Assembly: GCA_900104565.1 (NCBI GenBank)
Contig: LT629952.1
Span: forward strand, 558,001 to 622,000
Length of the DNA stretch: 64,000 nt
From: Ruminococcaceae bacterium Marseille-P2935
GTDB lineage: Bacteria > Bacillota > Clostridia > Oscillospirales > Ruminococcaceae
Direction of reading: 5' to 3'
A program made the position numbers and the translations under genes. The notes under the pieces were generated by a model that worked only from the letters and a program-made list of their open reading frames with translations, ran no database searches and was not told the origin of the DNA. The first letter of the stretch is position 1. Each line of letters opens with the position of its first letter. Below are positions 1 to 1,433 of this stretch, piece by piece.

Positions 1-508
1 ATTTTTCATATCCGAAAGGTGCAACAGACCCAATAAAGGCGCCATGTATCCTCTTGGTATCCAGCGCCGAGCGAACTTTTTTCGAAATATCCCGCGCATA
101 CATGTCGTTAATAACTGCCCGAAACGGGGTCATTTCATCCATTTCTCCCCTGCTTTGCTCTCCTGTATCAATACCGTCATTCACCGCAATAAACCGTACC
201 TGATGAAGAGGGAAAAAGCGCTCCATATAATATCCGGTTTCTATGTAGTCCCTTCCCAATCGTGACATATCCTTTGTAACGACAGTATCGATCAATCCAT
301 CCTTAATGTCAGCAATCATTTTTTGAAAAGCCGGACGCTGGAAGTTGGTACCGCTATAGCCGTCATCACAATAGATAATGCCTTCTCCCCAGCCTTTTTT
401 GGAAATAAAGTCCTCCAGATAACAGCGCTGATTTTGAATGCTCTGGGAATCTCCTTCCTTTTCCTGATCCTCTCTAGACAGCCTGAGATATAATGCAGCT
501 TTCAACAA
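1..508 (-). CDS. Large serine recombinase, N-terminal part (gene runs off the left edge)
   Basis: Site-specific DNA recombinase of the large serine family (SpoIVCA/TnpX-like); 169 residues are visible and the C-terminal DNA-binding part lies outside the window. The frame is open without a stop from the start to base 1. It shows the resolvase N-terminal fold: YLRLSRED with catalytic Ser10/11, the DGYSGTNFQRP segment, and KDMSRLGRDYIETG. No ATG is available. The likely start is one of two adjacent TTG codons (508 or 505), with AAAAGGGG just upstream; a GTG at 532 is possible. The upstream 42-aa ORF overlaps it by a few bases. Both follow a truncated dpaA on the same strand, as expected if this is the excisionase of an element interrupting dpaA. 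The family call is firm; the role is inferred. Confidence 0.88.
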   Translation of the reverse strand, partial: MLKAALYLRLSREDQEKEGDSQSIQNQRCYLEDFISKKGWGEGIIYCDDGYSGTNFQRPAFQKMIADIKDGLIDTVVTKDMSRLGRDYIETGYYMERFFPLHQVRFIAVNDGIDTGEQSRGEMDEMTPFRAVINDMYARDISKKVRSALDTKRIHGAFIGSVAPFGYEK

Positions 509-630
509 AAGGGGTTCAACCCCTTTTCGCACTGCTCACGAAGCAAAGTGAAGAATTCTTTGATTAGTACTTCCATCTGCGGGCCATCAGCGGCGTACTC
601 AACCTGGACATCGCTTTCGTCATATTTCAT
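502..630 (-). CDS. 42-aa leader ORF upstream of the recombinase
   Basis: Small ORF beginning MKYDESDVQVEYAADG and ending LNPFC. Its ribosome binding site, GGAGGTGA, is very strong and spaced correctly before ATG at 630. Its stop lies past the recombinase TTG start codons, so the two genes overlap and are probably translationally coupled. The truncated dpaA reading frame ends inside its ribosome binding site. The product is acidic and has no recognised domain. It may be an accessory (directionality or regulatory) protein or only a coupling leader; no function is assigned. Confidence 0.6.
   Translation of the reverse strand: MKYDESDVQVEYAADGPQMEVLIKEFFTLLREQCEKGLNPFC
507..527 (-). promoter_or_regulatory. 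Perfect palindrome at the recombinase translation start
   Basis: The 21-base sequence has arms AAAAGGGG and CCCCTTTT around TTGAA. On the transcript it would fold into an 8-bp hairpin holding the purine-rich ribosome binding site of the recombinase in its 5' arm and running into the TTG start. Ribosomes finishing the 42-aa ORF would have to open it. The hairpin is seen; control of recombinase translation is inferred. Confidence 0.5.
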
Positions 631-635
631 AGAAA

Positions 636-1433
636 TCACCTCCGATCTATAATTATGAAGCTTTTACTATTTTTATCCCAAATCCCACCATCCCCGCCCG
701 GCTTGGAGGCAAGGTCAATCACCAGGCAGTCTTTTTTTAAACCCGAGAGCACCTTTTCATTCAGAATTACCGCTGGAACTGTATTTATTACCAAATCAAA
801 TGGTTTTTCACATGTCTCTATTTCTGACATATGTATTGCTTTACAGCCACTTATTTTAATCCATGCCAGGTCGCTGTACTTTCTGGCGGCAACTGTAATT
901 TTCACTCCTAAACCAGTCAATTGTTTCATTAATACCTTAGAAATTCTGCCATATCCTGTGATCAGGCACTCCAATCCAAATAATGTTGTTGGAAGCTCCT
1001 GCATAGCAATGGCTACTGTTCCCTCCCCGGTAGGAACTGCATTTAATACCGCTAATTCTTCCCGCTTTAGATAGTCGGTTATTTCAATTCCACGTTCAGC
1101 AGCCAATGCCGCAATAGGAGGATCAACCTTTCCTCCAAAAACCTGTGCCTTTGGGTTAATATTGGTAAAACAACGTTTTAATGAAAACTTTTGATCAGAA
1201 AAAAGTGCGTTTACCGTTTCTCCATCTACTGTTATCGGCAAAGGCAAAATAATGACATCATTAGCCTCCAGTGCTTCTTCAATTTGTTTTACCTGGCATA
1301 CCAAATCAGATAATTCCACGTCTTTATCAAACAAAAAACCGGATACGCAGTAACCTTCTTCCGCCAGTCTACCCGCAAGATGGGCCTGACGCAGGTCACC
1401 GCCTATCACCAAAAACTTTTTATTCTGTTTCAT
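636..1433 (-). pseudogene. dpaA: Dipicolinate synthase subunit A, 3' end interrupted (likely by an excisable element)
   Basis: DpaA (SpoVFA) with DpaB converts the lysine-pathway intermediate dihydrodipicolinate to dipicolinic acid, the spore-core solute, in the mother cell. The first ~250 residues look intact: N-terminal FLVIGGDLRQ nucleotide-binding start, LPLPITVDG, and the second Rossmann GYGRISKVL. The protein ends after DLASKPGGDGGIWDKNSK plus ten residues, 265 in all. The family normally continues past ASKPGG for about 35 residues including an SLPG-type segment. Sequence from about base 698 down to 636 therefore looks foreign and leads straight into the 42-aa ORF and recombinase. Start is ATG 1433 behind GGGGG. 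dpaB is not in the window. It could be a dead gene or a gene restored by excision. Confidence 0.85.

Follow-up and report, generated by a model that had tools for sequence, protein, structure and literature searches.

The window, the whole 64,000-nucleotide stretch that was analysed, corresponds to C7:558001-622000 of the 2.67 Mb, seven-contig genome of Ruminococcaceae bacterium Marseille-P2935. On its minus strand, an open reading frame of the dpaA type (636-1433) follows the DpaA profile up to ...LASKPGG and then runs through 18 unrelated codons (DGGIWDKNSKSFIIIDRR) into a TGA stop. The 5′ part of the gene for dipicolinate synthase subunit A, from codon 1 to the core shared by both junctions, spans 692-1433 (−); it scores 231.4 bits with PRK08306 (profile 2-248) and matches TIGR02853 over profile 3-245. 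The tail of the interrupted frame (dpaA′) lies within the intervening element at 636-691 (−), with its stop at 638-636. Five nucleotides past that stop, and preceded by GGAGGTGA, begins a small ORF of 42 codons plus stop, ORF X (502-630, −); the TTG start codon of a serine recombinase gene overlaps with its TGA. The 5′ part of the recombinase gene occupies 1-532 (−) and continues past the window edge to C7:557279. Counted from GTG 532, it has 417 codons; the start predicted earlier, 130 bases beyond the end of the dpaA frame, agrees with TTG 505, GTG 532 being the alternative. The three frames follow one another in the same direction, separated first by 5 nt and then joined by a stop/start overlap. 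From this arrangement we infer that the recombinase, too, could be expressed when dpaA′ is transcribed.

The original prediction held that a recombinase-bearing element splits dpaA, with the missing end to the left of the window. At the level of sequence, this reading is supported. The profile match does give way to unrelated sequence right after KPGG. A profile search of the whole genome places the N part (profile 3-245) at C7:558693-559418 (−) and a C part, with its SLPG segment, at C7:542700-542831 (−; profile 244-287, E 3.1e-10). Beyond the C part lies dpaB, at C7:542110-542667 (−; 262.6 bits, cut-off 229). Both parts and dpaB share contig and strand, in the order expected of an insertion; only the guessed size of the missing end, some 35 codons, was wrong, the actual piece measuring 45 codons. 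Either an unbroken second dpaA or the lack of a dpaA C-terminus or dpaB elsewhere would have refuted the prediction. Neither was encountered: no second or intact dpaA was found in the genome, where the other matches of one search have E values of at least 0.1, and those of a further profile search are weak and cover only part of the profile (best 3.4e-5, profile 148-239).

The two parts share a 5-bp core, CGGGG, found at 692-696 (−) beside the 5′ part, within the range of 688-698 proposed for the junction. Its partner, at C7:542825-542829, is outside the window; the core-to-core distance is 15,867 bp. The 5′ side reads AAG CCG GGC GGG G|AT and the 3′ side ACA GCC GGG G|TA GAC: the core is in frame at both junctions, and a short copy of the break sequence is present at the far one, as had been foreseen. 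Joining at CGGGG gives a full-length dpaA of 293 codons (...ASKPGGVDFETAKNLG...), whose product scores 301.5 bits against a curated DpsA cut-off of 261 that 49 of 207 genomes pass; the N part alone stays at 231.4. Under the stricter TIGR02853 cut-off the joined protein falls short (231.1 against 319.65), as do all 81 genomes checked. Sporulation-gene-intervening elements of the skin, vfbin and gin kind have a short direct repeat at the two junctions, across which recombination restores the frame; the locus shares this feature. The longest exact repeat, the 7-bp AGCCGGG, was rejected as crossover: it lies out of frame, and joining there would produce a stop.

Beyond the recombinase, the interval carries 13 transport and catabolism genes, all on the same strand: in order, a GntR-type regulator, an M24 peptidase, a zinc alcohol dehydrogenase, a sugar-type ABC ATPase, two permeases, a UPF0261 protein, a PEP-hydrolase-like protein, a sugar-binding protein, a cupin, a two-part transketolase and a class II aldolase. 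Its G+C content is 43.6%, next to 41.6% (left) and 41.5% (right) in the flanks. A Pfam scan, which covered the recombinase, the 13 cargo genes and only three of the small ORFs, recognised no phage gene. By the same scan, the recombinase comprises resolvase, recombinase and zinc-ribbon domains. Alignment indicates that it lacks the coiled-coil motif of large serine integrases, about 115 residues being absent before the terminal strand; no frameshifted remnant of its C-terminus was seen past its stop in three frames.

ORF X may encode a partner or directionality factor of the recombinase; this is inferred, and it is a candidate only. The motif [DEN]G-x-[TS]-[LF]-E, a pattern made post hoc, stands upstream of 13 out of 73 recombinases versus 23 out of 5000 random places; for a looser, first pattern the counts are 8/73 versus 156/3000. 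Plain tblastn found no relative. Small ORFs bearing the motif also precede the recombinases of L118, L119, L121, L130, L070 and L107. Near the dpaA 3′ part, an opposite-strand ORF of 72 codons (L006:3026-3244, +) looks like a real small protein (GDHICIQFSGIMTMSLPPQI).

Relatives of the recombinase were sought in 394 genomes of the order, and the best ones pointed to further split dpaA genes. Ten genomes were picked by their recombinase: dpaA is split in five (G318, G137, G252, G300, G402) and not split in the other five (G080, G096, G336, G422, G426). In a sample of 207 genomes of the order, 170 match dpaA with an E value of 1e-20 or lower; in ten of these, Marseille-P2935 included, the gene is split. 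A single-sequence scan of genome contigs returned no recombinase relatives; a scan with the recombinase alignment returned 596, of which 80 were kept as loci, five of them beside a split dpaA. Five named contigs were added: SVJJ01000008.1 (Oscillospiraceae SIG432), JAETRV010000045.1 (Anaerotruncus sp.), CALXRY010000124.1, NZ_CALXGI010000047.1 (Pseudoflavonifractor sp.) and NZ_CALWXV010000012.1 (Flavonifractor sp.). Phage and plasmid records contain recombinase relatives only below 60% identity. The total comes to 19 splits in 18 genomes, 17 of them besides Marseille-P2935; those relatives that carry a name belong to the Oscillospiraceae and similar gut Clostridia. G214, where dpaA ends at a contig edge, was left out of the count.

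The same sporulation gene is thus hit repeatedly at two fixed codons within one bacterial order. Site A (KPGG|VD) accounts for 13 splits, i.e. 12 besides Marseille-P2935, and site B (NAVPT|A) for six; G402 is split at both, leaving dpaA in three pieces. The Flavonifractor and Pseudoflavonifractor genes are probably split twice as well, since a site-B-type recombinase adjoins the dpaA middle piece in the first and the piece in the second begins at the same place. In the 18 splits contained on one contig, the dpaA parts share a strand and are arranged as an insertion would leave them, and every interval (18/18) holds at least one large serine recombinase. In G216, the parts are on two contigs, with no recombinase in the 10,000 bases searched of one of them.

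The site-A core contains GGGG in 13 of 13 cases. The longest shared run differs from the core in 4/19 splits (G000, G252, G300, L124), for which the shared GGGG was located at the homologous codon; the repeat of G219 measures 20 bp. By a second, wider measure, eight of the 19 predicted circle joints have a palindrome near the core that no more than 4 of 2000 shuffles match: G186, L125, L130, G144 and G103, which stand out by the first measure too, and L118, G219 and G216, significant by the wider measure only. G252 (36 of 2000) is significant by the first measure only. The palindrome threshold is not reached in 11/19 joints; the Marseille-P2935 circle joint has no significant palindrome, 1426 of 2000 shuffles being as high.

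We consider it very probable that the 15.9 kb interrupting dpaA form a sporulation-gene-intervening element of the skin type, which would be excised in the mother cell; the excision is inferred, not observed. In favour are the order and strand of the dpaA parts, the in-frame core, the recombinase inside, the failure to find an intact copy, the recurrence of the split, the conservation of both halves in another genus, and the sigK-like, sigE-like and sigG-like genes of Marseille-P2935. Weighing against it are the small size of the 5-bp core, the Marseille-P2935 circle joint without a significant palindrome, the place of its recombinase outside the clade of the other 12, and the unproven activity of the short enzymes. 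It is established that dpaA is expressed in the mother cell, in general and not from Marseille-P2935. During sporulation, the recombinase, perhaps together with ORF X, would recombine the two junctions in the mother cell; the interval would leave as a circle and restore the 293-codon dpaA followed by dpaB. The spore would retain the unrearranged chromosome, so that passing on the split costs nothing. Because it would be removed only in a dying cell, the interval could take up ordinary genes, even essential ones.

It is improbable, though not beyond reach, that dpaA is instead dead, broken by a mobile element in a host whose spores lack dipicolinate or that makes no spores. Excision has never been observed, the absence of a dpaA match with an E value of 1e-20 or lower from 37 of 207 genomes suggests that the loss is tolerated somewhere, and the halves in G144 and L125 are weaker (joint 220 bits; only 29 bits for the L125 C part). 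However, the halves are intact to the same, homologous codon, a shared core allows an in-frame join in all 19 splits of the 18 genomes, and the joined Marseille-P2935 protein passes the curated cut-off. The genus g115 (G137, G252 and G300; 97, 94 and 94% complete) speaks against a dead gene too. The interval order symporter, recombinase, serS is common to its three genomes, so the split predates them and the genus itself. Synonymous differences in dpaA are near saturation (pS 0.67-0.77), yet amino-acid identity amounts to 47-59% in the N part and 56-69% in the 48-codon C part. Where defined, dN/dS is 0.285 (N) and 0.115 and 0.157 (C); saturation leaves it undefined in three of six comparisons. 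Dead fragments would not be expected to show such a pattern. This conservation is the strongest sequence evidence for a working split dpaA, and it comes from relatives only, not from Marseille-P2935.

The genes trapped in the intervals bear on whether the interval is an ordinary mobile element that leaves at random, with no link to sporulation and dpaA merely as its attachment site. Mobile elements commonly carry large serine recombinases, the pair of ORF X and recombinase resembles the usual integrase cassette, and mother-cell expression is unsupported for most relatives. Nevertheless, we find this very unlikely. Among the ORFs scanned in the interval there is no mobility, phage or conjugation gene. 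In all three g115 genomes, the sole seryl-tRNA synthetase match lies inside the interval; SerS is essential, from which we infer that a g115 cell should not survive excision during growth; random loss would kill it. The interval of G318 (98% complete) contains purE, purF, purN, a purH-type gene, purD and the only purL found. The two intervals of G402 include mutS2, uvrC, an asparaginase gene and dapF, for which we state presence only, with no claim of single copy. The site-B interval of L114-L115 (G276:C10:44258-67201) holds, by eye, apparent type IV pilus or type II secretion genes, with prepilin-like, prepilin peptidase-like and ATPase-like ORFs.

The recombinase tree comprises 73 rows, with 42 of the 80 named loci used (L118-L159) and five duplicates or near-duplicates dropped. 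Twelve of the 13 site-A enzymes fall in one clade (96/86), joined by L119 and L123, for which there is no dpaA within the sequence stretch examined. The Marseille-P2935 enzyme sits on a long branch just outside this 12-enzyme clade, with weak support. In a topology test, a clade made up of just the 13 site-A enzymes comes close to being rejected (p-AU 0.052); the 15 that include L119 and L123 give 0.39. The seven site-B enzymes cluster (99/95), with just two near outsiders in that part of the tree.

Nine of the 13 site-A enzymes are short and devoid of the coiled coil, against none of the 60 other tree rows. They measure 295-435 residues from the first aligned residue, and five of the nine also lack the zinc ribbon. 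On the tree, the loss of the coiled coil requires five changes. Short recombinase frames exist elsewhere, outside the tree rows (299 aa in G426, 442 aa in G096:C9 and G360:C50), so the loss is not confined to dpaA splits. In the literature, the coiled coil is described as favouring integration and inhibiting excision; a Listeria integrase that lacks it remains active with impaired control of direction, and phiC31 integrase without it is inactive (PMC10754689). We infer that the short site-A enzymes are biased toward excision and may work in one direction only; their activity is unproven, given that deletion of the coiled coil inactivates phiC31 integrase. Its loss in 9/13 speaks against further integration, and hence against an ordinary mobile element. 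At L077:9395-11135 (G426:C31), a short serine recombinase (about 293 aa) directly precedes an ORF, FeoB-like by eye, that apparently lacks its N-terminal part; dpaA is intact in G426, and the FeoB-like gene is possibly another split gene.

In several relatives the C part could start at a GTG encoding the V of GVD or at start codons further upstream, but that two dpaA polypeptides assemble and make DNA excision unnecessary is scarcely credible: the C part would be a 45-residue piece of what we take to be a Rossmann-type domain, the shared core and the recombinases would be left unexplained, and in Marseille-P2935, for which we reject this reading, the 75-codon open frame of the C part offers no start codon (ATG, GTG or TTG) ahead of codon 65, so that it is not translatable alone.

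Excision of a skin-type element in the mother cell admits a further proposal, on which we judge the evidence to be evenly balanced. The intervals may no longer be mobile at all and may instead belong to the germ-line chromosome, as segments whose elimination is programmed to take place in the doomed mother cell. With host operons and essential genes having moved in, vegetative excision would be lethal and the split irreversible, and repeated loss of the coiled coil would have left the recombinases able to excise only. A split gene can become permanent in this way, as loss of the element is lethal when the only serS is inside. If true, this would be bacterial programmed DNA elimination with a division into germ line and soma, for which the system offers a test case. 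On the practical side, gene callers may score such gut bacteria as dipicolinate-negative while dpaA is present in pieces.

To our knowledge, the known intervening elements are regarded as domesticated prophages or similar dispensable cargo. Split sporulation genes of this kind are known, among them sigK-skin, spoVFB-vfbin, spoVR-vrin, spsM-SPbeta, gerE-gin and yabG-yin (PMC5595907, PMC4191935, PMC6957869, PMC5025042, PMC10747680, PMC10745906). What appears new here is dpaA as target, two recurrent sites, a double split, a trapped single-copy essential gene and shortened enzymes. We found no description of a split dpaA/spoVFA in the literature searched, which mostly does not cover subscription papers and preprints.

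The closest parallels are four. In Bacillus subtilis and Clostridioides difficile, skin, like the dpaA element, splits a mother-cell gene, sigK, in frame and carries a serine recombinase; the joined gene is continuous and the split is passed on through the spore (PMC5025042). Unlike skin, which can be deleted in C. difficile, the dpaA element targets dpaA, has no recognised phage gene and a coiled-coil-free recombinase, and in relatives the dpaA intervals contain the only serS or purL found. In Bacillus weihenstephanensis KBAB4, vfbin splits spoVFB (dpaB), the other subunit of the same enzyme (PMC4191935, PMC6957869); it carries phage-related genes and hits subunit B in Bacillus, whereas the dpaA element hits subunit A at two hot spots, with other hosts and cargo. 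The gin element in gerE of Bacillus cereus ATCC 10987 resembles the dpaA element as a non-phage element with a serine recombinase and a short core (9 bp), and has a small partner protein, GirX, of which ORF X is only a candidate counterpart (PMC5595907). It has three recombinase genes and was apparently exchanged between strains (PMC5595907), in contrast to the dpaA element, with its single recombinase, catabolic operon, 5-bp core and vertical persistence in one genus. Finally, a 22-kb non-prophage insertion of B. cereus biovar anthracis is excised during sporulation; it carries a restriction-modification system and lies in sigK, not dpaA (PMC10745906).

Marseille-P2935 has full-length sigK-like (296.3 bits; cut-off 298.65), sigE-like and sigG-like genes, the sigma names being our interpretation. 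In three of the relatives, sigK itself is apparently split too: G402:C4:133835-141469 has partial matches to profile 1-119 (with one TAG) and 109-226, G186:C1:242257-260159 to profile 21-67 and 66-213, and G318:C46:15942-16241 a single partial match, over profile 15-114. With sigK looking split as well as dpaA, such cells may need two or three DNA excisions for sporulation.
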